64,000 bases of DNA from Eximiradius sp. (GTDB lineage Bacteria; Bacteroidota; Ignavibacteria; Kapaibacteriales; UBA2268): the NCBI GenBank assembly GCA_937127445.1, contig CAKZLY010000015.1, positions 231,766 through 295,765 of the forward strand. Reading direction: 5' to 3'. The position numbers were made by a program, and so were the translations under genes. A model generated the notes under the pieces. That model ran no database searches. It saw only the letters and a list, made by a program, of their open reading frames with translations, and was not told where the DNA came from. Below, piece after piece: positions 34,969-55,309 of the stretch (positions are counted from its first letter, which is position 1; the number at the start of each line of letters is the position of its first letter).

Positions 34969-35000
34969 AAGATGCCGCCTACGGATGTAAACGGCATCTT
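34969..35000 (-). terminator. Terminator after the PorV-like gene
   Basis: AAGATGCCG (34969-34977) pairs with CGGCATCTT (34992-35000); on the minus strand it is followed by TTCTATTTAA. It would end the operon that begins near 46.0 kb. Confidence 0.75.
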
Positions 35001-35016
35001 ACTAATAGAGCAATAA

Positions 35017-36054
35017 TTACAAACCTATTTGGATTGTAATACGATTTACTAAACCAATATCAAAAGTTGGGCTGATAGAATAATCAATTTTTCCGTAGAA
35101 TTGGTCAGTCAAATAGGAATAACCCACACCACCCGAGAAACCAAATTGGTCAGTGTTGAATACATAACCAGCACGGAAAGAAATCATATTTTTCCAGGTG
35201 TATTCGGCACCGATTGAGAACTGTTCAGGAGTATCGGAAAGAGTGGTAAATCCAACACCAGCATCAACTTTGTGTTGTTCATCTTTGTAGACATTGCCAG
35301 AGAGACCAGCACGGAAAATGATAGGAATATTATGGTAATAAGAGAGATAATCTACATCAATTGGTGCTGCCCAAAGAGCATCATTATATTTTTTTGAAGA
35401 GCGAAGTCCGCGACCAGTATATTTTTGTTCAGTTCCGAGATTGTGAATAGAGAAACCGAGTTTAATGTCATTAATACCAGTATTATACATTGTACCGACA
35501 TCGAAAGCGATACCGTTAGCATCCATTTCAGCAAATGAATTATTAACATATTTTGCAGTAATTCCGAATGAGAACTGGTCAGTAAGATAACCGGCAAAAG
35601 TGATACCAACGGCAACATCAGAAGCTTGGTATTCATAGCCAGTTCCTTCTGGTCGTTCAACAGTAGTAATTTCAATATCGCTACTGTTTAGAGAAGTAAC
35701 ATTTGCAGCAATTACAAAATTTTCACCAATTGGCATTGAAGCTGCAGCAAAGTTGTGGCTAAAATCGAATAGCCATTGAGTGTAGGAAAATTCGCCAGCC
35801 ATAGCACGGACATCTGCTAAACCAGCAGGATTCCAATAGATTGCAGAGAGGTCGTTAACCATAGAGGAATAAGCGGCTCCGATGGCGCTTCCTCTTGCAC
35901 CAACAGGGATTTTTAAGAATTGAGCACCAGCGGCACCTACTTTACGAAGTTCTTTTCCACCTTTGGACGAACCGTAAGTATTTTCCAATGCGAAAAGATT
36001 GTTGGTGCTCATCAAGACTAAACAAGCTGCGATAAGATATACTATTTTTTTCAT
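35017..36054 (-). CDS. PorV/PorQ-family outer-membrane protein
   Basis: The protein, about 345 residues, starts at the ATG at 36054 with GGAG upstream; a TTG 12 bases earlier is not needed. A signal peptide (about 1-23) precedes a FadL-like beta-barrel. The family opening AAGAQFLKIPVGARGSAIG and the SMVNDLSAIYWNPAGLA motif are clear, and the chain ends in a strand (GLVNRITIQIGL). In type IX secretion PorV carries cargo from the translocon to the PorU sortase, while PorQ and other paralogues have less clear roles. The paralogue type cannot be settled here. It is the last gene of the apparent four-gene operon. Confidence 0.9.
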   Translation of the reverse strand: MKKIVYLIAACLVLMSTNNLFALENTYGSSKGGKELRKVGAAGAQFLKIPVGARGSAIGAAYSSMVNDLSAIYWNPAGLADVRAMAGEFSYTQWLFDFSHNFAAASMPIGENFVIAANVTSLNSSDIEITTVERPEGTGYEYQASDVAVGITFAGYLTDQFSFGITAKYVNNSFAEMDANGIAFDVGTMYNTGINDIKLGFSIHNLGTEQKYTGRGLRSSKKYNDALWAAPIDVDYLSYYHNIPIIFRAGLSGNVYKDEQHKVDAGVGFTTLSDTPEQFSIGAEYTWKNMISFRAGYVFNTDQFGFSGGVGYSYLTDQFYGKIDYSISPTFDIGLVNRITIQIGL

Positions 36055-36088
36055 TTTATTCTCCAATTATCAAGTAATTAAACATTCA

Positions 36089-36115
36089 CGGTGGAGGGTA
36101 AAGCCCCTCACACCG
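36089..36115 (-). terminator. Hairpin between the 1533-residue protein gene and the PorV-like gene
   Basis: CGGTG-GAGGG (36089-36098) pairs with CCCTC-A-CACCG (36105-36115) with one bulged base. There is no long T-run on either side, so it may be an attenuator or RNA-processing or stability element rather than a full terminator. Confidence 0.45.
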
Positions 36116-36126
36116 CAAGTTATTAA

Positions 36127-39100
36127 TTATTCAGTAGTAATTCTGAAACCACCAACAACTACTGAGAAATTCTTAATAGTCTGTGCACCGTCTGGTGTAG
36201 TAATAACAGCCGCTAAAGTTTGGCTTGCAATACGTTGTCCGTTCTTAGTGAGTAAGTCCCAAATATTTAGAGCGTAACGGTCTTTTTCAGATGAAGTATT
36301 TTCGTCGTGCTTAATCGAAATCACAAGGTCGCCAGTGATAGTGTAAATATCAATTGTACAGACTTTTGGCAAGCGAGTGAAATAGATTTTAGCATCATAA
36401 GGTGAACGTTGACCTTGATGAGTTACGTAATATGGATTAGGCACAACCTGAATTTGGTCAAGAAGTTTATCTGTATATTTTTCGCCTTCTTCCATTGATT
36501 TGGAGATTTTAACACGAACTTTAGCACCGGGCATTGGTAGCCCCAAAGCACCACCGAATGTGCTGAGAACAATTTTATCTCCTGGTTTGAAGTCTTCGCC
36601 GAAAGTATAATCAGATGCTCTACCCCATTCGTTTTCGTTCGGGAAGCGACCGCCACGATTTACATAGTCGAGGCCAAACAGGACGCCGGAGATATCCAAT
36701 CCGTGGCAGAAATCAACTGTATCACGACCATCTTCCGAAATACCGGTTAAATAATATTTTCCTTGGCCAACGTATGTTTTAGCTTTTTTAGCAAGTTCAG
36801 TTCCATAAGGACGAGCGAATACACGAGGAGCTTGCAAAGCAGTAGCGCGACGACCGTTTATCCAGCCGTATGCTGCAATATTATACTTGCCAATGTATTC
36901 ATTAGTATTAATACCGTGATAAGCAAGATTGCGAGGATCTGGATAGTAACGTGCAGGGAATTGGAAATAAGAGGTAGTGTGAGCCGGAATAGTATCGATA
37001 AACATATGTTTGATTTCATCAGGATAAGTTACTTTCTCAGTTGCGTTTGGTCCTTTTTCAGGAGCTGGACGTTCGTAGCTGATGCGGTTTGTAATGCGAA
37101 GGTTTAGATAAGGCACTCTGAAACGCTTGTTTTGTTTTTGACCATCAGGTCCCCATTCTAAGTGCATAATTTCTTCGCCACCTGGTAAGAATTCAACAAG
37201 ATATTCACCAGGACCATTATTGAACGAACCATAAGTAACACCACCAGCAACTCTGTCATATGTTTGATATGTAAAGTATGAATTTACTGGCTGTGTTGTT
37301 AGAACAATATCTTGATTTGGTTTTCTATCGAGATTGCGCTTAATTCCAATATGAGTTGAAGCATTAGTAGTACGGTTGGAACCGCCGTCGGCAAATTTAG
37401 CTTTGTGGATAGTCATTGTATCTGGACGGAAGTTGCCACCAAATTGTTGGATAGCGAAATCAAAATCAAAACCCAAAGTTCCGTAAGCAGGTGGAAGCAT
37501 TGCATAAGTGTAGCAATATCCCATCTCTTTGAAATTACCGCTTGAGAATTTACCAGAGCGAGTAATTATTTCTCGGCTTTCAGGAGTACCGAATGTTACA
37601 GTTTTATTCGAAATACTGTCAAGAACCAGTGTATCTGAGAGTACATAAGAGAAAGCATTTTCAGTGAACAATCCTCTATATGATTCAAGATAGCATGGTT
37701 GAACTTCAAAGAATGTGATACCATCAAATAATGTTTGATTTTTATTGATATTTCTCAAAGTCATTCTTCTTTGATATAATCCGAATTTATTAACATCAGT
37801 TTCAGGGCGACCCATAAAACGCAGCTCACGTTGGTACCAGTATGGCTGAAATTCTAATTCGAGAGTGTCGCCACCGAATAGCTGCATAGCGCGTTCAGGA
37901 TCTAATGCATAGAAGTTGAAATTATATAGACCACCAATGTTTTTGTCAACATCAATTACTTCAAACTTTAGGCGTTTTTCAGCGCGAGGAGCAGCAGGAT
38001 ATACTTCAGTGAAGTTTGGAAGTCCAGGGTTACCATCATTATATTTACCAGGTGTTGGTTGGTTGAAGTCACCTTCGTCCAAAGCTAAAATTTTGTAGTA
38101 ATAAGGTATGTTATTGATTAGTTTCTCTGTTTTTGTTGGGTCGTCGTTAGTAGTAATAACACCATCATTATTATCGTCGCCAATGTCAGTAAATGTACGG
38201 TTATTTGTGATTTTTGTCATATAAGGAAGAATTACCTTTTGCTGAACTTCAGAAGTGCTTTCGAACTCACGGAAATGGTAGTCTGATACTTTACCTTCAA
38301 GGATTAATTTATAGATTTCTTGCAAAGCATTGTTTACTTGAGCATCATTTTGCATCCATTGATTTTTTGGAAGCGGAACGTAGGCATCGACAATAAATGT
38401 AAGTTTTCCATCTATATATGCAGAACGTAAAGTATTTTTCAAATAAGCAGTATCAACAGTTTGGGTTAAATTCCCGTTATTTTTCAAATAGACTAAACCA
38501 TCTGCTGGAATTGAGTTAAGGTAAGCAGTATCAACGTTTATAGATTTCTTTTGATAGAGAAGTGGATTGTATTTCATTAATGCACGGTTTATATAAATCA
38601 AACCAGTAAGTATACTATCAGCAAAGAAATTTCTTTCTTTAACGTTATAGCTAACATATGGGAAGTCAATTAATTCTCCAGTCTGAGAATTAGTTAAAGT
38701 AATTTTTTTGAAATTAGCAATACTGTTGAAGTAAGGTCCCCAAGGCTGTGAGTAGTAACTTGTATCAAAGTTTGCTACAACAGGAGCTGTAGGATAAGGA
38801 TTGTTCGCTTTAAATGTTGGGTCTATATAAAGCGTATTTCTAACAACTGAAGTAGGATAGAGATTACAGCCACGTGGAATGCGCATAACACGAACAACCA
38901 TCGAATCCACAATATTATAATTAGCATCAACGTATGGACCAACAATTCTCAATGAATCGATTGCAGGATAATTAGTATTATTTTCATCGCCTGTTTTTAT
39001 GTATGATTTTTGGAACGGAGTAGGCATCATCCATCTGCGCAAGAGTTTCCAACCAAGAGGACCTTTGCCACGAGGAAATTCGCTGGTTGGAGCAATAGTA

Positions 39101-40728
39101 TTTTGGTCATAAGCATCTAAATCAGTGCGGCGAGCACGGTACAGAGCATACCCCATAAAGTCCATACCACGTTCTAATGGGTCAACGGAAACTTCGGCAG
39201 TAGAATCCCAGGTAATACGAACTGCATTATTCATACCTTCGGCTTTCAAGAAGACGGTTCTATTAGGTGGCTTTGGAGCAGCAAAATTTTTATTATAAAC
39301 GTCGATAGCAAATTTTGTTTTTCTTACAAGATCTTGAACGTCTTCTTCTGAACCATCAGCATCTCCACCTTTCGAGGTATTTGCAAGAATGATACCAACG
39401 ACAACACGAACGGTATCCATAGGACGCATATTGAATGGGCCTGTTGCCATCATAAAACGTTTATCACCAGGACCGGTATCACCTTCGCGAATACCAGCAG
39501 CAATAAATGAATATCTTTCATCATCTTCTTTTGGATCGTAGTCAATAGACCAGTTTCTGAAAGTACGCAAACCGAGCTGGTTGCTATAAGCATAATAAGC
39601 GCTATCTTTGCGAATAAAATCGCTATCTTCTTTAATAACAAGGTCTAATCTTTCGATTTTCTTTTCACCTGTTTGAGGATCGGTTGTCCAAACGGTATCA
39701 TAATGCTGAATTACAGCAGGACTCTCGAGGAATGTATAACCAAGGTAGCCAAAACCTTGTCCGCGTTCACCACGATCGGTATTAGTCCATTGGAAAGCAA
39801 GGTTAAGTGTGGTATCAGTGTTATAGAATTTTACTCTATCGTTTGCTGCACCAGCACTCAAATTAGAAGAGATAGCCATATCAACGTCCATAACAGGTGC
39901 GAGCCAGCATTCTCTCAAAGTATCAGTAGAATGATTTGTAATGTTATAAGCTAAGAAAACAATATCACGATAATCGCCGAATCCCCAAGAATATATCATT
40001 TGTTCAAATTGAAGGCGAAGAGGATAACCTTCTTGACGGCGTTGAGCTGTACCACCTTCGTAGCGGCTTAAATCAGTATCTTTGAATGTAGCAAAAATAT
40101 CTTCGCCAGAAATGAAAGCAGGACCTTTCGGATAAGTGTTGGTATTGCGCATGCCAACATCAGGAATATACCATCCAAAATATCTATCCTTTGTTACAAC
40201 AGCGTTTGGATCAGGATTAGCATCCCAGATAGGCCAGTTGGGACCATCATTTTCGTTAATTGGCTTTCCATCGTTAGTGTAGAAGTCAGTTGAGAAATAA
40301 ACTCTATATTTTTTTGCAGCTTCGTTATCAACTAAATCACCATCAGCAATTCTACCAGGTACCATCCAGGAAGCGCCTGAATTTGGGTTATAAGTAACAC
40401 TAACATAGTTTCTGAATTGATCTGTGCCAGGTCTTTTTTTCTTGGCAGCAAACCAAACACCACCTCCGAAAATGTAGTGATTTTGTGAACCACGAGGCCA
40501 AATACCACTACCTTGGCTAAGAGCGGTATTCAATGCAAAAATACCGTAGTTAGTAGTGTAAAATTCAAGGTTGCTTACAGTATTTTTTTGCAAATCGAAG
40601 ACACCACGAGCTGCTCTTTGAACTTCGTAGAGAGGCTTGCCTTGCGCATCACGAGCAACGTCAGCAAAAAGCGAACCGGCAGAAAGCCCCAGAGCAACAA
40701 GTATTAGCAGAAATTTTTTAGGATTCAT
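36127..40728 (-). CDS. Large secreted protein with FlgD-like C-terminal domain, probable type IX cargo
   Basis: The 1533-residue protein has a signal peptide (about 1-22). Many Tyr, Asn, Asp and Pro residues in long beta-rich stretches follow. A fibronectin-like segment lies near 500 (NNAVRITWDSTAEVSVDPLE), and the C-terminus is a FlgD/Ig-like fold: QVVPNPYYVTHQG, KIYFTRLPKVCTIDIYTITGDLV and LLTKNGQRIASQTL. That closing domain is the one used by many Ignavibacteria-type surface proteins and likely guides type IX export, though its last residues (FRITTE) differ from the usual ending. The middle is unlike any family I recognise. It lies between a TonB receptor gene and the PorV-like gene. Confidence 0.8.
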   Translation of the reverse strand: MNPKKFLLILVALGLSAGSLFADVARDAQGKPLYEVQRAARGVFDLQKNTVSNLEFYTTNYGIFALNTALSQGSGIWPRGSQNHYIFGGGVWFAAKKKRPGTDQFRNYVSVTYNPNSGASWMVPGRIADGDLVDNEAAKKYRVYFSTDFYTNDGKPINENDGPNWPIWDANPDPNAVVTKDRYFGWYIPDVGMRNTNTYPKGPAFISGEDIFATFKDTDLSRYEGGTAQRRQEGYPLRLQFEQMIYSWGFGDYRDIVFLAYNITNHSTDTLRECWLAPVMDVDMAISSNLSAGAANDRVKFYNTDTTLNLAFQWTNTDRGERGQGFGYLGYTFLESPAVIQHYDTVWTTDPQTGEKKIERLDLVIKEDSDFIRKDSAYYAYSNQLGLRTFRNWSIDYDPKEDDERYSFIAAGIREGDTGPGDKRFMMATGPFNMRPMDTVRVVVGIILANTSKGGDADGSEEDVQDLVRKTKFAIDVYNKNFAAPKPPNRTVFLKAEGMNNAVRITWDSTAEVSVDPLERGMDFMGYALYRARRTDLDAYDQNTIAPTSEFPRGKGPLGWKLLRRWMMPTPFQKSYIKTGDENNTNYPAIDSLRIVGPYVDANYNIVDSMVVRVMRIPRGCNLYPTSVVRNTLYIDPTFKANNPYPTAPVVANFDTSYYSQPWGPYFNSIANFKKITLTNSQTGELIDFPYVSYNVKERNFFADSILTGLIYINRALMKYNPLLYQKKSINVDTAYLNSIPADGLVYLKNNGNLTQTVDTAYLKNTLRSAYIDGKLTFIVDAYVPLPKNQWMQNDAQVNNALQEIYKLILEGKVSDYHFREFESTSEVQQKVILPYMTKITNNRTFTDIGDDNNDGVITTNDDPTKTEKLINNIPYYYKILALDEGDFNQPTPGKYNDGNPGLPNFTEVYPAAPRAEKRLKFEVIDVDKNIGGLYNFNFYALDPERAMQLFGGDTLELEFQPYWYQRELRFMGRPETDVNKFGLYQRRMTLRNINKNQTLFDGITFFEVQPCYLESYRGLFTENAFSYVLSDTLVLDSISNKTVTFGTPESREIITRSGKFSSGNFKEMGYCYTYAMLPPAYGTLGFDFDFAIQQFGGNFRPDTMTIHKAKFADGGSNRTTNASTHIGIKRNLDRKPNQDIVLTTQPVNSYFTYQTYDRVAGGVTYGSFNNGPGEYLVEFLPGGEEIMHLEWGPDGQKQNKRFRVPYLNLRITNRISYERPAPEKGPNATEKVTYPDEIKHMFIDTIPAHTTSYFQFPARYYPDPRNLAYHGINTNEYIGKYNIAAYGWINGRRATALQAPRVFARPYGTELAKKAKTYVGQGKYYLTGISEDGRDTVDFCHGLDISGVLFGLDYVNRGGRFPNENEWGRASDYTFGEDFKPGDKIVLSTFGGALGLPMPGAKVRVKISKSMEEGEKYTDKLLDQIQVVPNPYYVTHQGQRSPYDAKIYFTRLPKVCTIDIYTITGDLVISIKHDENTSSEKDRYALNIWDLLTKNGQRIASQTLAAVITTPDGAQTIKNFSVVVGGFRITTE

Positions 40729-40768
40729 ATTCTTTTTACATCCTTTATATTATTAATCATAAACTCAA

Positions 40769-43700
40769 TTAGAAATACATATTAAATCCGAGCCAAATTC
40801 TAAATGGCGTACGGAATAAGGAACGGAATTTCATTGATGTTTCAGCATTTTTTAAGTACTGTTGGTATTTTTCGAGCTGAGTAACAATTCCATTGCCATC
40901 TAAATCAGCAATGGGATTGTATAATCTATTTCCATAAGAGTCATATTGGTCAGAACGGAAGCTTTCAGCTTGAGCATAATTTGCTTCTTTATAAAGAGGC
41001 ACTTCCGAGAAAGTACCAATTTCACGATCTAATGTACGTCCATCATCAATTGGGTCACCAGTTGTCGTATAGAAACCAGCAGGACCACGCATATTTAGGA
41101 TATTACGCATATCAGCAAAGAATTCGATGCGAGAATTTTTCATACCTTGCCCGAACCAATTACGGAGGAAGAAAGATTTAGCAACTCTACCATCTAAGCT
41201 CCAATATGATGGACCGCGTTCAGCATTACGTTCTGAAATTGGTCTACCATTAAGGTCAACTCGAGTATATGGGGAGCCGGACTCATAGCCACCTGTGAAT
41301 GAGAATGTAGTATTTTCAAGAGGATAAATACCACCGATTGAAGGACCTTCTCCTTTTTGCCAATAGAAGAAAATGTTATAGTTAATTACGTGGCGAACAT
41401 CGTTATCAAGAGGATAAGTAGCCAGTGGGAAAGTTGGTTTTTGAGAATATGGGTCAATATCGATTCCTGCGTTATCAAATGCACTCGAAGAAGTACCATC
41501 AGAATAGGACAACGTATAATTTATCTGAAAACCTAAATTATTGGAAGCACGCTTATAAAGTTCGAATTCGATACCGCGAGAATTACTGTATTCAGTAACG
41601 TCGAGCAAATAGAAAGGATCGGGAGTAGCAGCAACATAGATAACCCCTAATTGATTATATGTATCTTTGAAATATGAAGTAATAGTCATCGAGAAGTCTT
41701 CCGACAATTGATTTCTATAAGCGACTTCGTATTGACGACTCTTTTCAGCTTCCATATTAGGATTTCCTAAACTACTGCCGGAGCGAATTCTTGAAACATT
41801 AAAGTTATCGTAGATGTTCGAAAGAAGGGGCGTTTTAAAATACATACCGTAAGCAATAGAAAGGTTTGATTTTTCAGTAATTGGATAAGTAATGTTAATT
41901 CTTGGGCTAACCTGATATTTCATTTCAGAATCTTTGAATGTATTTCTATCAGTTACGATAGAAGTAAATCTGGAAAGGTCAGTTCTATAGAGTGAATTAG
42001 AATTAAACATATCCAATCTCAAACCAGCAGAAAGGATTATGCCTTTGTAAGAAAATTGGTCTTGAGCATAAGCAGCAAATTTGAATGGTTTGAAAGGTTT
42101 ACTGGATTCTTTGTATAGTTGTTCATTATCAGCATAGATATTACCACCCCAGCGGTCAGTATAAATATCGTAGAATGGATTACCATCCCAAGGATTTGAG
42201 TTTTGATGACGATGAAGCTCAACAAAACGCATTTCGAAACCAGCTTTAGCATTATGGTCGAAATCACCAGTTTTGAAAACGTTAGTATAGCTACCATCTA
42301 TTTGTATATAGGAACCTTCACGAAATTCAAAGCCGCTTGAATTACCATGAGTGTAATAAGCATTAGGCAAACCATAAGCATTGTTTGAACCAGTTGCATT
42401 TCCACTACCTTCGTAATATCCAGTCAAAGGATTTTTCGCAATAAAATCTTTTTTAATATATCCGTCTTCGGATGTACGAATTTCTGTAAGTGATTGATAA
42501 ATATCAATAATCTTGTCACCAACACCTTGTGGTGCAGGAACTAATTTATTTAAAATACCATCATATATGTATTTATCTTCTGGTTCATAAAGTTCGAAGC
42601 CGCTGAAATAACCTGGATCTTCCCATTTCTTTCTTCTTGAACCTGCCTCATTTTGAATATTTTGGGATACTGTAAGCTGATAATAGCTACTTTCAGTTAA
42701 TGTATGATTAATACGAGCATATATATTCGATAGTTGAATGTTTACAACATTTTGTTTTGCAATGCGTTCAGGAATACCGTTAGGAGTGGGGACTCCATTA
42801 ACAATATCAACTTTACCGTTCTTCATCAGAGGCGTTCCTTCATCATTTGCATAAAGCCAAGAACGAGAAGAAACTTCATAATTAGTCATACCGAACATAC
42901 CGCCGGTGATAAGTTTAATGTCGTTAGTAATAGCAAAAGACAATACACTAGTAATGTTTTTTCTCCATAATTGGTTATCAGGCATGTGTCCTAAATTATT
43001 ACCAAGAGGATCAAATATTTTATAGCTTGCGTTGCGATATTTTTCATAAAGATAGTTTGTTGAGATATAGAAAGTAGAACCATCGATTAAAGGAAGTGGA
43101 CCGCCAACACCGAATTCGACAAGATGCTCGTTTTTGCCTTGAAGTTTGTGACCTTCACCATAGTCAATAGCTTTATATCGAGTACCATCTTGAATTACTT
43201 TAAGTCCATTTTTTTGACGTCCCCAGAGAGCAGCAGCGTCAGTTCTATAGCGCAAGAAACCTTCGTAGCGGTCAGTGCGTCCAGTTTTAGGAACAGTATT
43301 GACAACACCACCTAATGCTTCGCCAACTTCTGCGGAGAAACTCCCTTTGAGTACTTGAACTTCTTCGGTAGCGTTAGTAGAAACGATAGGAGCATAGTAT
43401 GAACCAGCAGCACCGAAACCACCAGTGAACTGATTACCAATATCAAGACCATTGTAACGAATTTGAGATTCAGAAGCACGGCTGCCGCGAATTGCGAAAC
43501 CGCCACCAGTATTTGTAACACCGGCACTCATACCAACAACGCTTGCTAAACCTTCGCGAGCAATATTGGTGAGATCTTCGCCAGAAAGAACGTTTTTCGA
43601 GCCTATAGCGGTTTTATCAACCAATTCTTTCTTGGCAATTACTTCGATTACTTCTGTTTGAACGCCTTCATCACGAAGTCTTACGTTAATTTCTGTAACC

Positions 43701-43981
43701 TGGTCGGCAACGATACGCACTTCGACAACATATTCGGCTTTGCCGACAGCGGTAACTCGAACTTTGTAAGTTCCAGCAACAATGTTTGCAATTGTAAATT
43801 CACCATTCGGACTACGAACAACCGCACCACGCGTTGTTCCTTCGATACGAACACTTGCACCAATAACACCTTTGCCATCAGTATCCACAACGCGTCCTTT
43901 TAAAACACCGTGAATACTTGCGAAAGCATCTGTTGGCAGTGCTATTGCTACAAGTAGAAGCAATAGAATAATTTTCCGCAT
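40769..43981 (-). CDS. TonB-dependent receptor with carboxypeptidase-regulatory-like domain
   Basis: The 1070-residue protein has a signal peptide (about 1-22). A CarboxypepD_reg-like beta-sandwich (about 25-110; GVLKGRVVDTDGKGVIGASVRIEGTTRGA) is followed by the plug domain (about 115-240; IGSKNVLSGEDLTN and GGVVNTVPKTG). A 22-strand barrel then runs to the C-terminal Phe (IWLGFNMYF). This is the SusC-like layout used for uptake of large nutrients across the outer membrane with TonB energy. No SusD-like lipoprotein is present; the next gene instead codes for the 1533-residue protein. The ligand is unknown. An AGGAG ribosome site precedes the start. Confidence 0.92.
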   Translation of the reverse strand: MRKIILLLLLVAIALPTDAFASIHGVLKGRVVDTDGKGVIGASVRIEGTTRGAVVRSPNGEFTIANIVAGTYKVRVTAVGKAEYVVEVRIVADQVTEINVRLRDEGVQTEVIEVIAKKELVDKTAIGSKNVLSGEDLTNIAREGLASVVGMSAGVTNTGGGFAIRGSRASESQIRYNGLDIGNQFTGGFGAAGSYYAPIVSTNATEEVQVLKGSFSAEVGEALGGVVNTVPKTGRTDRYEGFLRYRTDAAALWGRQKNGLKVIQDGTRYKAIDYGEGHKLQGKNEHLVEFGVGGPLPLIDGSTFYISTNYLYEKYRNASYKIFDPLGNNLGHMPDNQLWRKNITSVLSFAITNDIKLITGGMFGMTNYEVSSRSWLYANDEGTPLMKNGKVDIVNGVPTPNGIPERIAKQNVVNIQLSNIYARINHTLTESSYYQLTVSQNIQNEAGSRRKKWEDPGYFSGFELYEPEDKYIYDGILNKLVPAPQGVGDKIIDIYQSLTEIRTSEDGYIKKDFIAKNPLTGYYEGSGNATGSNNAYGLPNAYYTHGNSSGFEFREGSYIQIDGSYTNVFKTGDFDHNAKAGFEMRFVELHRHQNSNPWDGNPFYDIYTDRWGGNIYADNEQLYKESSKPFKPFKFAAYAQDQFSYKGIILSAGLRLDMFNSNSLYRTDLSRFTSIVTDRNTFKDSEMKYQVSPRINITYPITEKSNLSIAYGMYFKTPLLSNIYDNFNVSRIRSGSSLGNPNMEAEKSRQYEVAYRNQLSEDFSMTITSYFKDTYNQLGVIYVAATPDPFYLLDVTEYSNSRGIEFELYKRASNNLGFQINYTLSYSDGTSSSAFDNAGIDIDPYSQKPTFPLATYPLDNDVRHVINYNIFFYWQKGEGPSIGGIYPLENTTFSFTGGYESGSPYTRVDLNGRPISERNAERGPSYWSLDGRVAKSFFLRNWFGQGMKNSRIEFFADMRNILNMRGPAGFYTTTGDPIDDGRTLDREIGTFSEVPLYKEANYAQAESFRSDQYDSYGNRLYNPIADLDGNGIVTQLEKYQQYLKNAETSMKFRSLFRTPFRIWLGFNMYF

Positions 43982-44026
43982 TTTTTTACTCCTATAACAA
44001 ACTTAGCTAAAAAATAAACAAAACAT

Positions 44027-45985
44027 TTATTTAACAATTGTTATTACTTTTGTATCTCGTTTACCGCCACTGTAAATATCTAAATAATAAGTTCCTGTTT
44101 GCAAATTCTTTCCAGAAATATCAATTTCGATAGTATTAGGTCCGAATTGATATGTATTATCGAATTTTTTCAGATCGTCAACTATTCTACCTGTGGCATC
44201 AAAAATTGTCAAATTAGCTTTATCTTCTTTGGGCATATAGAAAGTAACAGACAAAGACCCATTAGAAGAGATAGGATTTGGTTTAACGTGAAGAATTTTC
44301 ACTTCACAATTGCAAGGTTCTTCATCTTCGACGCTTGAAGCAAGAATATCGAAATTGCCGACTAGCAAATATTGATCTTTGCCACCGTAGAATTGTTCAT
44401 TGAATTTTTGTTGTTCGGTCATACCAGGAGTAGTAATTGTTGCCATTTTGAAAATAGGAACATTTTTCAGGTCGTTTGGGATTAAATCTGGCAACATTGT
44501 CATTCTATCTAATTCATCAGATTGAGTAATATTTATTGGGGCAGACCAGGAATTTTCTGAAGTATTTCTGATAGAAACAAAAACGTCTGTTGTTCTGAAT
44601 GTACTATTTTCAGGGTCGTAATCAATTAATCCGACCCATTTAGCTAAAAGATAGCGTCCATCGACAGTACGAGCAACGTCGAGTTCGTTATCATTCCAGT
44701 TAGTGCGTTGATTATTAGCATCTGTAATATCCTGATAAAGAATCCATCCGCCAATATCTTGTGCGATTGGATAAATATTCCATACGCCTGTATTATAATT
44801 ATAATTGATTTCAACAACATAAGAAATAGTCTCGCCGGTGCCATAAGCGTGAAGCTTTGCAACAAAGGACATAAAAGTAGTGTTGTTCAATTCATAAGTT
44901 GTAAAAGCTTTATTGTCGTAAATAAACACAGCACTATCAGCAGGGTGTCCTTTGGAGGTAATAAAATTATTCACAACACTCCAAGGAAGCAAAATAAATT
45001 CAGACCAAGTGCGACCTTTATCAGTTGAAAGAGAAATACCAAAGGTATTTCTTTGAATTGAATAAGCTTCGAAACCACCAAAAACAGCAAGACATAGATT
45101 ACCATTCCCAAATTCTTTGAAATCAACAACTTCATTTGAACGATAACCGGGATTGACAGTCCTGAATTTAGAGCTCGACCAAGCATCAGGGATTATATGT
45201 TGGATTGAAGATTCGCTAAGTTCAATAACTTTTCTCAATCCAATATGGTTGGCATTAGCAACATCCTGGTTGTTGGTTGGAGAAATACGGCTAACAATTA
45301 GGTGATAAAAGCCTTCACCATCTTCGGTAGTATTTGCATAAACACGAGAATCAATTCCCCATTCCAAGCCAGAATAGCCGGCAACATCTTTTGAATGGCG
45401 AATTGGAATAGAGCCGTAGCTATCGTTCCAGAAACCTACAATATGTCCAGTCCAAACACTTTGTTTTTCGATTACTCTTGAAGCATTAAAGCCAACAGCT
45501 AATTCATTTTCAAATACAAACGGATGGAAACTCGGGTAGCGAGCTTCATCAAAATTGGATACAGTTTTATCGTAAGCAATTTTAGCAGGTTCCCAAGTTT
45601 TGCCCCAATCGCTTGAAACGCGTATAAACAAGTTATTTTTAGTATTGTTGCCTGAGTAGTTTGGATAGCGATCATTATCAATGAAACCACGTTTAATTGT
45701 TACCAATTTATTTGTTTTAGGCTCATATTTGATAGCTTTGTTAGTCATCATATTCCCGTAAGAATAGACGTTAGCAAGCGAATCAAAAACGACGAATTTA
45801 GAATTAGCTTGCACTTTGTAATTAGATTTTACATACTTGACATTCTCAACTCCTACGGTAGGCAAATTAATACTGCGTTCAGGAGAAGGAAGAAGTTGTT
45901 TAGACATAACTTCTGCAAATAACGAATTAGTCATTAAAGCAGAAGCAATAATCAAAAACAAAAATACAGTAGATTTTTTCATCAT
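44027..45985 (-). CDS. Type IX-secreted BNR/sialidase-like repeat protein
   Basis: The 652-residue protein has a signal peptide (about 1-24). A propeller-like body has Asp-box-type motifs (SSDWGKTWEPAK near residue 105; STDKGRTWSEF near 325), as in sialidases and other BNR proteins. A type A C-terminal sorting domain comes last (VKPNPISSNGSLSVTFYMP, LTIFDATGRIV, then LQTGTYYLDIYSGG and VITIVK). Asp-boxes are structural and do not prove enzyme activity; the Arg triad of sialidases is not clear. It is the first gene of the apparent operon that continues with the TonB receptor. Confidence 0.85.
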   Translation of the reverse strand: MMKKSTVFLFLIIASALMTNSLFAEVMSKQLLPSPERSINLPTVGVENVKYVKSNYKVQANSKFVVFDSLANVYSYGNMMTNKAIKYEPKTNKLVTIKRGFIDNDRYPNYSGNNTKNNLFIRVSSDWGKTWEPAKIAYDKTVSNFDEARYPSFHPFVFENELAVGFNASRVIEKQSVWTGHIVGFWNDSYGSIPIRHSKDVAGYSGLEWGIDSRVYANTTEDGEGFYHLIVSRISPTNNQDVANANHIGLRKVIELSESSIQHIIPDAWSSSKFRTVNPGYRSNEVVDFKEFGNGNLCLAVFGGFEAYSIQRNTFGISLSTDKGRTWSEFILLPWSVVNNFITSKGHPADSAVFIYDNKAFTTYELNNTTFMSFVAKLHAYGTGETISYVVEINYNYNTGVWNIYPIAQDIGGWILYQDITDANNQRTNWNDNELDVARTVDGRYLLAKWVGLIDYDPENSTFRTTDVFVSIRNTSENSWSAPINITQSDELDRMTMLPDLIPNDLKNVPIFKMATITTPGMTEQQKFNEQFYGGKDQYLLVGNFDILASSVEDEEPCNCEVKILHVKPNPISSNGSLSVTFYMPKEDKANLTIFDATGRIVDDLKKFDNTYQFGPNTIEIDISGKNLQTGTYYLDIYSGGKRDTKVITIVK

Positions 45986-46018
45986 TATCTACCTCTTAAA
46001 TTATTGGTAAAAGTATTG

Positions 46019-46036
46019 AATGTATTTTTATACATT
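46019..46036. repeat. Inverted repeat at the start of the type IX cargo operon
   Basis: AATGTAT-TTTT-ATACATT is a perfect 7-bp inverted repeat placed just downstream of the -7 element at 46040-46047. It could be an operator or a leader hairpin. Confidence 0.4.
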
Positions 46037-46039
46037 TTT

Positions 46040-46047
46040 CAAATATA
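46040..46047 (-). promoter_or_regulatory. Possible -7 promoter element for the 46.0-35.0 kb operon
   Basis: TATATTTG on the minus strand fits TAnnTTTG, about 55 bases before the start codon at 45985. A TTTG lies only 14 bases further upstream, shorter than the usual 19-21, so the -33 part is doubtful. Confidence 0.45.
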
Positions 46048-46087
46048 CAAAAAAAATTCATCAAACATAAAAAATGTGAAATATTTG

Positions 46088-47458
46088 TTAATAAAGTTTT
46101 AATTTAATTCCATAAATCAAAGAACCAGTAGTAATATATTTTGTTTTAGCATTGAGAACAAGTCCTTCGAACGATTTTATTTCACCGCCAAATTTCAAAT
46201 AAACACCGTTGAAAAGTTCGACATCTGAAATAAGCCTTGAATAAAACATAGCTCCATTGCCAGATAATCCCGCACCAATTCTTGTATTTAGAGAAATACG
46301 TTCGTAATCAAAAACATCATAATCCATAAATGTGGAGACCCAATATTGTTTGTAGTTTTGAGCTAAATTTATTGGTATATAGACATACTCACTTGATTGG
46401 TCGTGATTATTCCCAATTTCGACTTTTGAGTTAAGAGAACCATTTGTAAAAGGAACTTTAATCATAGTTGTTCTGTCGTAATTATATTCTGTATAGCCAA
46501 ACTCTATACCCAAAGCTACATCCTCGGTGCAATTATAAGCAATACTCTGTGACAGAGAGGAAATGGTTTTAGCATTTTTATTAATAGAGTTTGCGGTATA
46601 AAGTGTTGATAATATAACAGGAGTGGTGAAATTTTCAAGGAATGATAAATTTATGTTAGCATTAGGATTCAGTTTAATTTGATTATTTTGATTTGCAAAA
46701 TTTGAAGAAAGCAACCGAGATGAAAATAAAGTAAACGAAGAAGCATTAGAAGTAGTTAAAAGTTTTTCGTTAGAATAATTATTACTACTTAAAGCCTTTG
46801 AAATATTTTCTGAATCTTCAACAATTTTAGAATTAATGGCAGGTTGATATAAATTATATGATATTGCATCTGAAAGAATATCATTTGAGGAAAAGCTTTC
46901 AGATAATTTAGAATTACTTTCTGATAAAATCTGAGCGATTTGAGAATCTTTGTTATATTTGGAAACAAAAACTTTCGGTGAATGAGATTTTGGTGTAGAG
47001 GTATTCTGTTTTGTAGTATCAGAAAAATCATCAGATAAATTTGGGTTATTTTGCTGTTGCTGACTGCTCGGATTATTAAGTGATAGAGCACGGGAATTGC
47101 TAACAGAATCTGTATTTGAAGTATTTGTAATAAAATAAAGAGTAGCAATCATAAACAAAGCGAACATAAAAGAAAGTCCGGGCAACCATAGAGGAAGTTT
47201 TCTTTTTTCTTTTTGAGCGACAGCAGGTTCATTAGCCGACAGGATACGCATCAGGACTAAGTCTTCTGTATTTTTGAGAAAATCCTGTGACGCCTGAATA
47301 GATTGAGCATCTTCGCGAATTGCAGAATTGATAAGCACAGCAGAATCAAACTCTGCCTTGGTATCTGGATTGTTTTTCAGCAAATTGCGAAGATGAATAT
47401 CCTCGTCGTAAGAAAGTTCACCATCAAGGTATTTAGATATTAAATCGTCAAGTTTCAT
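46088..47458 (-). CDS. Anti-sigma factor spanning both membranes (Dma-like)
   Basis: The 456-residue protein has three parts. Residues 1-85 are a small cytosolic anti-sigma-like domain (LISKYLDGELSYDEDIHLRNLL), without zinc ligands. After KEKRK, residues of about 90-110 form one membrane helix. Residues 111-265 are Ser, Asn and Gln-rich and probably unstructured. Residues of about 285-456 are alternating beta strands ending in GSLIYGIKLKLY, as in small outer-membrane barrels. Such proteins, which run from the inner to the outer membrane, have been reported in Bacteroides as dual membrane-spanning anti-sigma factors. Its start overlaps the sigma gene end by 11 bases. Confidence 0.78.
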   Translation of the reverse strand: MKLDDLISKYLDGELSYDEDIHLRNLLKNNPDTKAEFDSAVLINSAIREDAQSIQASQDFLKNTEDLVLMRILSANEPAVAQKEKRKLPLWLPGLSFMFALFMIATLYFITNTSNTDSVSNSRALSLNNPSSQQQQNNPNLSDDFSDTTKQNTSTPKSHSPKVFVSKYNKDSQIAQILSESNSKLSESFSSNDILSDAISYNLYQPAINSKIVEDSENISKALSSNNYSNEKLLTTSNASSFTLFSSRLLSSNFANQNNQIKLNPNANINLSFLENFTTPVILSTLYTANSINKNAKTISSLSQSIAYNCTEDVALGIEFGYTEYNYDRTTMIKVPFTNGSLNSKVEIGNNHDQSSEYVYIPINLAQNYKQYWVSTFMDYDVFDYERISLNTRIGAGLSGNGAMFYSRLISDVELFNGVYLKFGGEIKSFEGLVLNAKTKYITTGSLIYGIKLKLY

Positions 47459-48011
47459 GTATTTCCTTCATAATTGGTTGCAACATTCTACGAAGAAGAA
47501 GCCTTGCTCGGTGTACTCTAACTTTTGCAAGAGAGAGTTCGATGCCTAGTATATCGGCAATTTCCTGGTAAGAGCGTTCTTCGTATTCGCGTAGTATTAG
47601 CGCTTCCCGCAAAGTAACTGGCAATTGGGCAACTGATTTTTCGATAAATTCACGCATACCAACATCACTACTTGGCATACGCAATTGACCGTGATAGACT
47701 TCGTCGAAAATTTCGTGTTCTTTGCGAGCTCTGATATAATTCAAGCAAGTATTGCGAGCGATAGTATAAAGCCAAGCAGCAAAATTATTTCCTTTAAAAT
47801 TAGTCCGGTGTTCATAAACTTTTATAAAAATTTCTTGAAAGGCATCTTTTGCAATTACAGAATCGCCAAGCATACGCAAACAGAAGCGATAAATATTTTG
47901 TTGGTATTTATTATACAAAATATGAAATGCTTCTGCACTACCTTTCTTGAAATTTTCAGCAGCTTCGATAATCTCGCTATCACTTGCAATATGTTTGCTA
48001 CTTTTAAACAT
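47448..48011 (-). CDS. ECF RNA polymerase sigma factor
   Basis: The 187-residue protein has sigma region 2 (about 20-90; YNKYQQNIYRFCLRMLGDSVIAKDAFQEIFIKVYEH, then FAAWLYTIARNTCLNYIR) and region 4 (about 130-180; LREALILREYEERSYQEIADILGIELSLAKVRVHRAR). It directs transcription of envelope genes when released by the anti-sigma factor encoded immediately after it, with which it overlaps. A TAnnTTTG element lies at 48042-48049. The regulon is unknown. Confidence 0.93.
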   Translation of the reverse strand: MFKSSKHIASDSEIIEAAENFKKGSAEAFHILYNKYQQNIYRFCLRMLGDSVIAKDAFQEIFIKVYEHRTNFKGNNFAAWLYTIARNTCLNYIRARKEHEIFDEVYHGQLRMPSSDVGMREFIEKSVAQLPVTLREALILREYEERSYQEIADILGIELSLAKVRVHRARLLLRRMLQPIMKEIHET

Positions 48012-49666: not shown

Positions 49667-52600
49667 TCAATAATTAATCAGAAACTTACCAAATACTGAT
49701 TCATAATAAATTGAGTTATTGCTGATAATTGAGTAGAAATAAACACCATTGGGCAACAAATTCCTCTGGTCGTCAACATTATCGAAACTTAGAATATTTT
49801 CTCCAATTGTAGCTATAAAACTGAATTGACGAATTTTTTGTCCAAAAGAGTTGTAGAAATAGATCGTAAACGATTGATTGTTTTCGGGAGAAAGCAAGTA
49901 GAATTTAAGATTAGTTTTATATTTTGAAGGATTTGGATAAATCAAATTATCTTTAATTTCACCATTTTTGGAAATTTTCAGGAAATATTTTACGGTATCA
50001 CGGTTAGAGGAAGCGTCAGAAAAATAAATAAGTACCGAATTATCTAATTCTCTAAGAGTATCAGGTATAATTGTAAGCTTGGCTTTGAGCGGACGAGTAT
50101 TTCCAAAAGTTTCGAGTTGGTAGTATTTGCAGCGTTCGGGTGTTTGCATAACGCCATTGATACGGACTCGCAAATCATTTTGTCTGACAACAGGCAAAAG
50201 TGAATTATCATAGAGTTCAACAGAAATTAGGGGGGAATTTGAGATATAATCGCCGTTTTTTACGATTTTATCATCAAATTTAGCAATAATCCAAGGACGA
50301 ACTGTATCTTCTCGCGTATTGAAGTTAGTCTGACGAATGTTGTTGAATAGAAAGCGTTCTGTATGAGATGAAGTAATTGATGACTGTATCGAAATTGTCC
50401 CGCTAAAATTATCAGTTGGGATTTTAGCAACAAAGGGAAGCGTTTCATTTACTTTGATTGTATCAAGAGTAAATTGATATTGAGCGCTAGCATTAAATTG
50501 GTCCTTAATAGCGATTTGAGCTTTGATATTACCTGAATTTGAACGTAAAGATAAGTTTTTAATGTTGAGTTGGATTTCGTTAGTATCGCCACGCAAAATG
50601 TTTGGAAAAGAAATATGTGAATTTGGCAAAAGTAGCAATTCTTCTGATGGCTCTAAATCAATGGTAACATCATCAATAAAAATGTCGTCTAAATAATGCG
50701 ATTTCTTTAAAGATAAATTGATCTTTAAGAATGGGAATTTTTCGGAAGAAACGTTGGAAAGACTAAATAAACCTGTTCCCAGAAGTGTAGTATCCAAGGA
50801 AAGTGAGTTATCAGAAGAAAAAAATGTTAATTGTGTTTCAATATTTTCAGGTTCATCATAGTAACCAGTTATTTTGATACTGCCCCACCTTTTAGCAGGA
50901 GAAACACAAGAATAAGTTGCATTACCATTAAGCGAGTAAAATTCAAGGTAACCTTCGACCATTGCACTATCAAAATCATTGATACTTTCCCAAATTTGAT
51001 TACTGCTTTTTCCACCTGCATAAACAAAAGATTTATTGGAAGCTAATTGTTCTGCAAGATTAGAGTGATACAAATCTTTGAGAAGCAAACGAAGGCTATC
51101 GATATAAGCAAAATCGGTATTGGGAACAAGTTCTTCGAAAGCACGGAAAGATTGATTGCAAGTAGCAATCAGAACATAATCATCATTTGTTACGCTATCG
51201 CGGAGAAGCCTAACCAAGTTGCGAGCATCATCAGGCAGTTCCCATGTATCAAATCTATAATAGCGACCTTTCGGCAATCGTTGATTTTTAGGCACGACAA
51301 CAACGTTGAAACCACGGTAATACCGGTGGTCAATATACACATCGTTGCCAAGAGTAATATTCACCCAGGAATCGAGTTCGCCAGTAGGATAGCCGTTTAG
51401 CCCGAGCAACGAAAAGTGTATTTTTGGATTTTTGATTTTTATTTTATCATCAGATATTTCAGTGCCGTCGAATTGAAAATTAGAAAAATCTGAATAATCT
51501 GTAATTTTAATTTGGGTTTTACTTAATTGGTTATCCGAAGTATAAAACGGTAAAAACGAATAATAGCTCGATGTTCCAGTGGATAAATTAAGAACTTTAT
51601 ACCGTAAAACATAAGATTTATTGGCTTCCAACTCAATTTCAGGTTTCCAATCCAAATATCCATCATAAACAAAAATCTGTCGACCTTCTGAACTTGCAAT
51701 AATATTAGTATCTTTATCATTAACTGAAAGAATATCTAAATAAAAAGCAGCCTGTTCCTTGTCGAAAAAATTAATAAAACGAAAAACTAGATTATGAGGA
51801 GTAACATTCCAATTAGCTTGTGGGTCGATTGGAATAATATTTTGGGAATACACAAAGAAAGTAGAATTCACTGAATTATCAGAAAAATTTTTATCCACAA
51901 AGAAATCGCTTTGTGCTAATATTTCAATTGAATGTTCTCCGGGTAAATTTTCGATTGGAAGTTGGAATTCGAACTCGGCTATATTGCAGATTAGATTAAA
52001 ATGCTGGAATAAAGTATCTGCTTGATTTTCGTATTTTCGAATTAGGCGAACATACAAAGGATTGTTCTGGGCATAACCATTGTTATAAACTCGACCTTTA
52101 ACAGTGGCATATTTTTCAGTTTCGGAGAGAACAGTCTCGTTGTTTTGGTTTGAAATGGAAATCTCATTGCGAGGTATAAACAGATCAGGTTCATAACCTA
52201 ATCGAATAGAAAGAGTTGGGTCGCCAAGAAGGCTGACTAAATCACGAGTTACATAATACACCCATTGAGAAGGATCGAGACGAGAGGTTCCATATAGCAA
52301 AATATCACCAGCACGTCGAAGTGCTATGCGGTAGTCCGAAAAACCATCAACCATATAAGTCATCAGTGAAAGGGCACCTTCGACCATACCAACACCAGTT
52401 GAACCATAAGTAATAACAAAGCCATTATCTTTCGCAAGGACGTAAGATTCATTTCTACCGTGAAAATCAAGAGGTTCGGCAAATGCACCAGCATTGCAAG
52501 AGAGAGTGGAAAGAAAGCCTGTCCTTCCTTTATTGTTCATATATTCGACGTGCCAGCCATCTAAATCGAACACCTGCGAAGAAGCGTGTCCGAAAAAGAA

Positions 52601-55309
52601 AGTCCAGATAGTTCCAGAATTTAGGTGAGACAATATTTCATTTTTTTGTTCTTCGCTACCAGCATTGAAATTTTTTATTCCCACCCACGCTGTTTCGGCA
52701 CAAATCGGGTATGGCTCAACCTTGTCGAAAACATTATAACGGTATGATGCGAATGAACGGCGTTGCAATTCGCTATCTCCGCCAGAAAGAAATAAGAATT
52801 TTTTCATCCAGCGGGCATTTGGTTGGTTTTCGAAAGCAATTGCTTTTTCAATATAGTTAGCAACTTCTTGTTTTGTTTGGGCTGGAATACGCCCGACTAT
52901 TACTTCTGGATCGAAATCCTCTCCGTCCAAAAGTCCGAACCAATAGTCTGAAACTGGCCAACCAAAAGATGGAATAAAGCAATCGCTACGGCTACCTGCA
53001 AGGACTTTCCTGCTGTCCCAGGAGGCGTCTCCAATCAAGAGTAAATATTTGGGTCTAATCTCCCAATTCTGGTAGGCATATAGTAAATATTTTTTAATGG
53101 CAAGTGGAGAAATTTTACCATAATTAAATTCTTTGTATATATCATCAACATCAACTAAAATGTTTGAAACACCTTTGCTTGCTTTGTATTCTGAATACTG
53201 CTTAGCTTTCTCGAAAAATTTATTATGAGAAACAATTATTAGCTCAGCGCCTTTATTTTCATTAGGTAAATCTGTTTCATTAGATAAACTGACAACTGGA
53301 ATTTGAATAGAGTTAAATGAATTCAAGAAAATAGAATAATTCTTATCTGCTTCGAAATCAAAATTAATTTGAAACGATCCAGCATTTTTCTGTGCAAAGA
53401 AACCATTAATAGATGCAATATTATTGCTTAATTTTTCAAATTTTTCGGATTTTCCTTTTAACGATGCAAAGACCCAATTTTTGTCGGAAGAGTAATTGGA
53501 CATTTCGTTGCTACCAATGCTTTGGAAGAAGGAACGTACATCAGAAGGTAAAGTTTTGCGCATATTATTTGCAAAAAGCACTAATGAATTATCTGGCAAT
53601 TGATTATAAATTGAAGAAAGAACATTAGAACTGATGTTATCATTGAAAATTAAAACTCTTATTTCTGAGAAATTATGATAAGCAAAAACAAATCCACTAT
53701 CAATATAAACACAAGTATCATTTATCACTAATGTGTTAGCTTGCGAACCAGCAGAAGCAGCAAATCGGAACCCTTCCACACCGTTAGAGAATGAAATCAA
53801 TTTATTTATAGTGTCGAGCAAAACAACATTGGAAGAGTTAAATCCGGGAATTGTTAGATTACTTGGTTGCTGTAGTTTTTTTATATCAAACTGAATAAAA
53901 CCTTTTGTCGGAAATGGCTTGACCTTGCCCTGGAAGCGAAAGAAATCCACTCCGAGCAATCCATTTGAAGAATCAACTCTACGATTGAGTATTTTAAGCT
54001 CGTTAAGTCCATTATAAATATTATTGCCGGCGACTGAGAAACTAATAATTGAATCTGTCCATTGATTGACAAAAGTAGCATTAGCAGTGTCTTTGTTGAA
54101 AATTGTATGGAAAAAATATTTTTGAAGGGGATCTTTTCCACGATATTGAAGCCCAATGCCAGGTAGAGAAATATTTAGAGTAGCAAATCGATATAAGATA
54201 CGAAGAGAATCATTTTCGGAAGGCAAAATCGGGAAATAATGCTTAAAGCCGAACAGTTGCTCTTCCCACCACTCCTTAAAACGATGAATTTTTGCCCAAT
54301 ACCACCCTTCAAGATAATCTTGACGAGAATAAATATCATTAGTCCCACCGAAATATTCTTTATCAAGTTCGATGTGATAATCAATTTCAACAATTTGTAT
54401 AGAATTTGTTGCAGTTACTTCTGGGAATAAAGATAGCCGAACTGGTGTTTTATTATCATCTACGAACAGATAGAACACAGCTTTATCAGTGTAGAAATCT
54501 AAATAAGTCGTATCTCCCTGGGCTGCTCTACTTAAAAAATAAATTTTTGATTTAGAATTAAAGAATTGATTATCAGAACTAATATAAATTGGATAGTCCA
54601 TCCCCATATAAAGCAGATGAAAAGCGTCAACTGGTTTATTTTCCCATTCGGGTATTAAACTAAGTATCTGCAAGCCATCAATTGCAGCAATTGAAAATTT
54701 ATTGGTCTCTATTTTTAAATACTTTTGTTTAGGATTATACCAATTTGCGGACTGAGGATATATCTGCTGCTTAATCGAAGAATTGTCTAATATCGCTGGC
54801 AAATGTTCAGGATTTATTATATCCCTGAAAAATGATTTTTCGTATTCAAATAGTTTTTTATTGCTTTTTGAGAAAGTATTTATTGGATAAGTAAAAGAAA
54901 TCTTGATTTCTAAACTATCAGCGATGAGTGGAGTACCGTTTTCGAAAAGAAAAGGATTTAGCTTAAGTCGAGCAATTTTAACGTTTCGTCGTATTGAGGA
55001 ATGTATTTTCTCTAATAATGCAAGATTAGATTGAGTTTCAAATTCAATAACAGTTGCTTTGTAGGAATACACTTTGTAAGATAAATGGAAATCATTATCC
55101 TTCTGCAAAGCAATTGGGAAAATTAAACTATTAAAATTACCGAGAGTGTCGAACGATGTAAATAGTTTCAACTGATCATAATTATTAATGACCATTTTTT
55201 CAAGATTATTCAGCTTGATAATTATTTCATTTTGGTTTGAGTTTATTATTAATTCAGAAAAAAGCGAAAAAGTCGAGAGAAAATAAAGCAATATTATTGT
55301 TTTTTTCAT
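49667..55309 (-). CDS. porU: Type IX secretion system sortase PorU, very large
   Basis: The 1880-residue protein has a signal peptide (about 1-18) and an N-terminal propeptide-like half. A C25 gingipain-like peptidase follows (about 690-1080) with the catalytic His H908 in FFFGHASSQ and the nucleophile C938 in LSTLSCNAGAFAEP. Long beta-rich domains come next, and the last 90 residues form a type A sorting domain (IYPNPSKYKTNL, TIYFYNSFGQKIRQF, LLPNGVYFYSI). PorU cuts off the sorting domain of cargo proteins at the cell surface and links them to lipopolysaccharide. Porphyromonas PorU is about 1150 residues, so this one has about 700 extra. Confidence 0.9.
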   Translation of the reverse strand: MKKTIILLYFLSTFSLFSELIINSNQNEIIIKLNNLEKMVINNYDQLKLFTSFDTLGNFNSLIFPIALQKDNDFHLSYKVYSYKATVIEFETQSNLALLEKIHSSIRRNVKIARLKLNPFLFENGTPLIADSLEIKISFTYPINTFSKSNKKLFEYEKSFFRDIINPEHLPAILDNSSIKQQIYPQSANWYNPKQKYLKIETNKFSIAAIDGLQILSLIPEWENKPVDAFHLLYMGMDYPIYISSDNQFFNSKSKIYFLSRAAQGDTTYLDFYTDKAVFYLFVDDNKTPVRLSLFPEVTATNSIQIVEIDYHIELDKEYFGGTNDIYSRQDYLEGWYWAKIHRFKEWWEEQLFGFKHYFPILPSENDSLRILYRFATLNISLPGIGLQYRGKDPLQKYFFHTIFNKDTANATFVNQWTDSIISFSVAGNNIYNGLNELKILNRRVDSSNGLLGVDFFRFQGKVKPFPTKGFIQFDIKKLQQPSNLTIPGFNSSNVVLLDTINKLISFSNGVEGFRFAASAGSQANTLVINDTCVYIDSGFVFAYHNFSEIRVLIFNDNISSNVLSSIYNQLPDNSLVLFANNMRKTLPSDVRSFFQSIGSNEMSNYSSDKNWVFASLKGKSEKFEKLSNNIASINGFFAQKNAGSFQINFDFEADKNYSIFLNSFNSIQIPVVSLSNETDLPNENKGAELIIVSHNKFFEKAKQYSEYKASKGVSNILVDVDDIYKEFNYGKISPLAIKKYLLYAYQNWEIRPKYLLLIGDASWDSRKVLAGSRSDCFIPSFGWPVSDYWFGLLDGEDFDPEVIVGRIPAQTKQEVANYIEKAIAFENQPNARWMKKFLFLSGGDSELQRRSFASYRYNVFDKVEPYPICAETAWVGIKNFNAGSEEQKNEILSHLNSGTIWTFFFGHASSQVFDLDGWHVEYMNNKGRTGFLSTLSCNAGAFAEPLDFHGRNESYVLAKDNGFVITYGSTGVGMVEGALSLMTYMVDGFSDYRIALRRAGDILLYGTSRLDPSQWVYYVTRDLVSLLGDPTLSIRLGYEPDLFIPRNEISISNQNNETVLSETEKYATVKGRVYNNGYAQNNPLYVRLIRKYENQADTLFQHFNLICNIAEFEFQLPIENLPGEHSIEILAQSDFFVDKNFSDNSVNSTFFVYSQNIIPIDPQANWNVTPHNLVFRFINFFDKEQAAFYLDILSVNDKDTNIIASSEGRQIFVYDGYLDWKPEIELEANKSYVLRYKVLNLSTGTSSYYSFLPFYTSDNQLSKTQIKITDYSDFSNFQFDGTEISDDKIKIKNPKIHFSLLGLNGYPTGELDSWVNITLGNDVYIDHRYYRGFNVVVVPKNQRLPKGRYYRFDTWELPDDARNLVRLLRDSVTNDDYVLIATCNQSFRAFEELVPNTDFAYIDSLRLLLKDLYHSNLAEQLASNKSFVYAGGKSSNQIWESINDFDSAMVEGYLEFYSLNGNATYSCVSPAKRWGSIKITGYYDEPENIETQLTFFSSDNSLSLDTTLLGTGLFSLSNVSSEKFPFLKINLSLKKSHYLDDIFIDDVTIDLEPSEELLLLPNSHISFPNILRGDTNEIQLNIKNLSLRSNSGNIKAQIAIKDQFNASAQYQFTLDTIKVNETLPFVAKIPTDNFSGTISIQSSITSSHTERFLFNNIRQTNFNTREDTVRPWIIAKFDDKIVKNGDYISNSPLISVELYDNSLLPVVRQNDLRVRINGVMQTPERCKYYQLETFGNTRPLKAKLTIIPDTLRELDNSVLIYFSDASSNRDTVKYFLKISKNGEIKDNLIYPNPSKYKTNLKFYLLSPENNQSFTIYFYNSFGQKIRQFSFIATIGENILSFDNVDDQRNLLPNGVYFYSIISNNSIYYESVFGKFLINY

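Follow-up and report, generated by a model that had tools for sequence, protein, structure and literature searches.

The TonB-dependent receptor, giant secreted protein and PorV-family barrel encoded side by side on the minus strand of a 64,000-nucleotide stretch of Eximiradius sp. DNA (hereafter the window; source assembly of 2.45 Mb) form a real and widely conserved unit, a predicted operon that is undescribed as far as the searched papers go (no description of the triad was found in the part of the literature covered). Conservation of the trio points to a complex of a kind not described before, put together at the cell surface with the help of type IX secretion. The trio combines a TonB receptor with a variation on the known pairing of a sorting domain and a barrel. 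The chances are judged about even that the giant protein is exported by SprA, held on the surface by its own barrel, and acts as the outer partner of the receptor. If true, type IX secretion and TonB-dependent uptake, which have been treated as separate, would be joined in a single conserved operon.

Gene order and its conservation

The four minus-strand open reading frames (35017-45985) listed in an earlier note on this DNA were found as described. From 5' to 3', they encode a BNR/Asp-box protein with a type IX type A sorting domain (44027-45985; Por_Secre_tail 35.6 bits, above cut-off) and two Asp boxes, the TonB-dependent receptor (40769-43981; CarboxypepD_reg, plug and barrel Pfam domains above cut-off), the giant protein, a member of a conserved family (36127-40728; 1533 aa), and the barrel (35017-36054). 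The note had given gaps of 45, 40 and about 70 bases: the first two were exact, and the third was 60 bases, or 72 if translation of the barrel begins with the ATG at 36054 and not as in its ORF form (35017-36066). This ATG, with GGAG six bases 5' of it, is most likely the start of the gene, and was used to set its coordinates.

When the giant protein was searched against 395 genomes of the phylum, almost every genome of its order gave a strong relative, and most of the class a weak one. The nearest named records to the source genome were Candidatus Kapabacteria and Ignavibacteria MAGs, and the giant of one locus (L079) had 96% identity to that of the window. A plain ORF caller and profiles made from the loci themselves served to annotate the neighbourhoods. 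At the order-level, class-to-phylum-level and named-genome loci, respectively, the gene immediately 5' of the giant was the receptor in 20/20, 13/15 and 65/66 cases, and the gene immediately 3' was the barrel in 20/20, 13/16 and 73/77, the order-level and named-genome sets being partly overlapping. As the loci were picked by the giant alone, these neighbours are no selection effect. The four barrel misses in the named-genome set comprised two opposite-strand ORF calls (L124, L139), a 195-residue intervening ORF (L157) and a fragment whose neighbours are unrelated (L158). The triad was also present in three WOR-3 records (L150, L151, L153).

Chance is excluded for the receptor-giant-barrel core, because its order is kept across deep divergence. 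The distances of the three proteins correlated at 0.95-0.97 over 89 loci, as expected for co-inherited genes. The earlier note had named uniqueness of the order to this genome among its refuting conditions; the order was found in Kapabacteria, many Ignavibacteria and WOR-3, and the grouping of receptor, giant and barrel as one unit holds well beyond the source genome.

Members of the giant family also occurred without receptor or barrel neighbours (L072, L074 and the short forms L076-L078). The latter are paralogues of the giant N-domain of 516-564 aa, and an ECF sigma-like gene was present near the short paralogue in L076 and L077. In another locus (L064), giant-like and PorV-like genes, three of each, surround one receptor, an arrangement that suggests repeated duplication of the protein-barrel module.

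Type IX secretion in the genomes carrying the giant

The source genome encoded SprA (732 bits, cut-off 200) and contained 66 type A sorting-domain matches. SprA was encoded by each of the 183 genomes that had the giant N-region, and the 91 genomes lacking SprA also lacked this region, a co-occurrence that is partly due to phylogeny. Matches to SprA were likewise obtained for four genomes from which WOR-3-like loci come, three of them above cut-off. A further 121 SprA genomes had no giant, which is thus not a general part of the type IX system.

The giant secreted protein

The giant possessed a signal peptide with no lipobox after it. None of 22 giant homologues had a Pfam match, NCBIfam gave only noise for the giant, and sequence searches against the PDB, singly or as profiles, returned nothing; with the Pfam and PDB searches empty, only folds helped. 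The protein had earlier been described as being of unknown fold; modelling now points to a beta-supersandwich N-part and a sorting domain at the C-terminal end.

The AlphaFold2 model of residues 24-640 (pLDDT 85.5) was mostly beta, and residues ~42-485 (39274-40605, minus strand) were modelled as a beta-supersandwich domain similar to those of GH94, GH15 and GH116 (Z 15-19 over ~250 residues, 6-11% identity), with structural matches including 9ju0 (Z 19.3), 1ug9 and 1lf6 (both Z 18.2). As no catalytic (alpha/alpha)6 barrel was present in this model or in that of residues 820-1533, the giant is unlikely to be an enzyme of these families. The shared fold shows no function, and glycan binding by this domain is a guess.

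The model of residues 820-1533 (pLDDT 83) was also mostly beta. Its last domain (residues ~1416-1529; 36142-36483, minus strand) was structurally nearest to that of PorZ (5m11; Z 11.8, rmsd 2.1 Å over 90 residues, 24% identity) and then to PorU (Z 9.8), while the cargo domains of NucA (7.3) and RgpB (7.1) were within the range of unrelated Ig-like domains, the gap above generic Ig folds being moderate except for PorZ and PorU. At the sequence level, the giant itself had no match to the type A models (PF18962/TIGR04183). The NCBIfam PorZ model weakly matched 9 of the 22 homologues, the match being confined to the C-terminal ~110 residues in the three scanned singly. A profile of the giant C-terminus aligned with type A sorting domains from its own genome (hhalign probability 74, E 2.7e-5; at most 1.2 for five other giant segments as controls), and among 17 sorting tails of the same genome the PorU tail was the best match. 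The last ~110 residues form a diverged type IX sorting domain, recognised both as a fold and as a remote homologue.

PorU and PorZ keep their sorting domains and are anchored by PorV and PorQ (PMC5562754, PMC10202324). The likeness of the giant domain to precisely these retained domains argues against the reading that the barrel is a transient shuttle, from which the giant would be released after cleavage of its sorting domain or attached to lipopolysaccharide by PorU. Such delivery would fit the use of cognate PorP/SprF shuttles by type B cargo (PMC12618676), the relationship of the giant domain to those of type A, and the presence of a PorU sortase in the genome; however, all type A cargo are reported to share a single PorV (PMC12618676), so that ordinary cargo should need no barrel of its own. 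Cognate delivery of this kind is considered very improbable.

With its sorting domain, mostly beta fold and lack of a lipobox, the giant bore no sign of likeness to SusD. Four class-level homologues (L066, L067, L068 and L069) had a CxxCH heme-binding motif in their first 40 residues, which suggests a heme-bearing version of the protein.

The PorV-family barrel

The product of the last gene matched the PorV/PorQ family model (NF033709; 171 bits, cut-off 90) and scored under the equivalog cut-offs for PorV (68/250 bits), PorQ (85/220) and PorV2 (52/325). Identification as a FadL-like BamG was rejected, the BamG model being matched weakly by only 1 of 17 family members. The source genome encoded four PorV-family members: a true PorV directly after a PorU gene, a PorQ-like gene beside SprA, a lone divergent member, and the triad barrel. 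The lone member (L162:3245-4330) belonged to a well-supported clade of its own across the order.

In a maximum-likelihood tree of 82 barrel sequences, which resolved four separate groups, the triad barrels formed one clade (support 100/99) spanning the phylum and WOR-3. This clade included eight sequences without a triad label: in five cases (L202, L204, L206, L208 and L209) the preceding gene has a giant-type domain at its end, L229 is an additional paralogue, and two could not be judged. Two genomes of an order-mate family lacking the giant had PorV- and PorQ-clade genes, and no triad-clade barrel was seen in them. These sequence relationships indicate that the triad barrel is a separate PorV-family paralogue and no housekeeping shuttle, and that it is probably dedicated to the giant. 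The earlier assignment to the PorV/PorQ type is borne out at the family level.

It has been proposed that cognate PorV-like barrels protect sorting domains (PMC10202324). With PorZ and PorU as the closest relatives of the giant domain and the barrel a separate paralogue, delivery or anchoring of the giant by the barrel, as suggested in the earlier note, is now favoured; the note had the unit right, and probably the anchoring too. The evidence from sorting domain and barrel concerns these two genes only, which would suit a giant and barrel that form a PorZ-PorQ-like pair by themselves, serving as an adhesin, scaffold or coat, with a co-regulated receptor that imports something else. The repetition of giant-like and PorV-like genes around a single receptor in L064 is in keeping with such a pair. 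The receptor is nevertheless directly upstream in nearly all loci, WOR-3 included, and its distances track those of the giant (r 0.97), although vertical inheritance alone could suffice for the latter. A pair acting without the receptor is regarded as rather unlikely, while still deserving serious consideration.

The TonB-dependent receptor

The earlier note had called the receptor SusC-type, which holds for its CarboxypepD_reg-Plug-barrel layout but not for its family, as it scored 29.6 bits against the SusC/RagA model (TIGR04056; cut-off 368). A true SusC (590 bits) was encoded elsewhere in the genome, whose only true SusC-SusD pair was located on contig C18 together with its sole SusD_RagB match, confirming that the locus has no SusD partner. 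The low SusC score and the lack of a SusD-family lipoprotein beside the receptor rule out membership of the SusCD systems, and with a receptor that is not SusC and a giant without SusD features, the label "SusCD-like" was not retained. A heme receptor was not adopted either, because the match to PhuR, the best PDB sequence, was partial and the score against the hemin model was low (34 vs 317 bits).

The barrel and receptor might instead aid the export or assembly of the giant or of other surface proteins, the receptor then being no importer. PorV-like barrels do work in export, and surface proteins are held by FadL-family barrels in the BAM complex of Bacteroidota, where a FadL/PorV-like barrel holds a surface protein next to another barrel. 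The plug and barrel domains of the receptor are ordinary, though, and the true PorV, PorQ and SprA are already there for export, which makes an assembly device improbable.

A candidate surface complex

In the preferred arrangement of export by SprA, retention by the barrel and partnership with the receptor, the giant would cross the inner membrane via its signal peptide and, as its C-terminal domain and the presence of SprA suggest, the outer membrane through SprA. The PorV-family barrel would then take its sorting domain and keep it bound, by analogy with PorQ-PorZ and PorV-PorU. Since the domain would stay bound, the giant would remain on the surface, uncleaved and without a lipid anchor, a step for which the observed paralogy of the barrel and likeness of the domain argue. 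The barrel may lie beside the TonB receptor and the giant, with its glycosidase-like beta-supersandwich N-part, may be the outer capture part or lid of the latter; gene order is what points to this contact between giant and receptor. Where present, the Asp-box protein would be an exported helper cargo. A glycan or glycoconjugate as ligand is a guess.

A large secreted protein carrying a sorting domain and its PorV/PorQ-family barrel are also found in the PorZ-PorQ and PorU-PorV pairs of the Porphyromonas gingivalis attachment complex, the PorU and PorV genes being adjacent in the source genome as well, and it is the PorZ and PorU domains that are structurally nearest to that of the giant. The triad differs from these pairs in its other N-terminal domains, its own barrel clade, and the TonB receptor in the unit. 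It shares with SusC-SusD a TonB receptor with CarboxypepD_reg and a large surface protein next door, whereas its receptor is not SusC, its partner protein is a non-lipoprotein with a sorting domain, and it has a dedicated barrel besides. The functional precedent for such dedicated barrels is type B cargo, encoded together with a cognate shuttle or anchor barrel (SprB-SprF, PG1035-PorP-PorE; PMC9143113, PMC12618676), but the triad has a C-terminal domain related to type A, a barrel related to PorV and not to PorP, and a TonB receptor in place of PorE. Finally, BamA-BamG-BamH of the Bacteroidota BAM provides a structural precedent, in that it also combines a FadL/PorV-like barrel, a large surface protein and a second barrel alongside; the triad has no BamA, its surface protein is no lipoprotein, and its barrel is only distantly related to BamG.

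These comparisons leave room for a tentative reading, with chances a little short of even, in which the triad represents a third route to a surface partner for a receptor, one that uses not a lipoprotein (SusD, BtuG) but a type IX-exported protein clamped by its own PorV paralogue, the resulting receptor-barrel-lid complex being widespread in the non-Bacteroidia FCB group. If true, permanent PorV-like anchoring of uncleaved sorting domains would extend past PorU and PorZ, the cases known so far, with many natural examples for testing it, and a function would be provided for a large family of giant proteins outside Pfam and NCBIfam.

Upstream genes

A protein of 550-760 residues was encoded directly before the receptor in 59 of 84 loci; of these 59 proteins, 56 contained an Asp box, and the tail was sorting-domain-like in 58. 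The BNR protein, counted in the unit by the earlier note, is nonetheless a common but optional component and no fixed core member, since several loci have an ECF/anti-sigma pair directly before the receptor.

In the window, an ECF sigma factor gene (47448-48011, minus strand; Sigma70_r2 and r4_2 above cut-off) is accompanied by an anti-sigma-like gene (46088-47458, minus strand), the product of which has a weak zf-HC2-like N-terminus (PF13490 only at E 0.058) and a likely single membrane span with a periplasmic C-part. Among the five genes preceding the giant, an ECF sigma gene was present at 12/17 order-level loci and at 0/8 class-level loci with enough sequence. In relatives, the anti-sigma gene adjoins the ECF gene at the same place, and in other loci it occupies the position before the receptor. 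The two genes (46088-48011, same strand) belong to the conserved neighbourhood, and in Kapabacteria expression is probably under their control.

The window also encodes, two genes before the ECF sigma factor, a C25-type protease of 1880 residues with a type A sorting domain (49667-55309, minus strand), which is PorU2-like yet under cut-off (235.6 of 450 bits).

Non-coding elements and downstream genes

Two copies of TAnnTTTG, TATATTTG (46040-46047) and TATGTTTG (46062-46069), were present 5' of the BNR gene on the minus strand, where the earlier note had reported one such element. As the motif is frequent in the AT-rich window (124 occurrences vs 94 expected) and the two-part TTTG-N17-23-TAnnTTTG pattern was absent at both copies, which had no -33 partner, they are only plausible as a promoter of the four-gene unit, and a promoter call from TAnnTTTG by itself was dropped as weak. 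A sigma-70-like scan showed no excess above shuffles. The terminator placed after the last gene corresponds to a hairpin of 14 pairs with a T-rich tail (34969-35000, minus strand), although terminator-like sites were no more numerous in the region than in its shuffles.

Downstream of the barrel, the window contains a KDO-transferase-like gene. The first gene after the barrel in another locus (L045:12888-14375) encodes a GWxTD-domain protein, and similar-sized genes follow the barrel in many other loci and not in the window. The gap between the giant and barrel genes contains a strong RNA hairpin (36055-36126, minus strand; -24.1 kcal/mol, z -4.7) with no T-run after it, which may perhaps set the relative dose of the two products.
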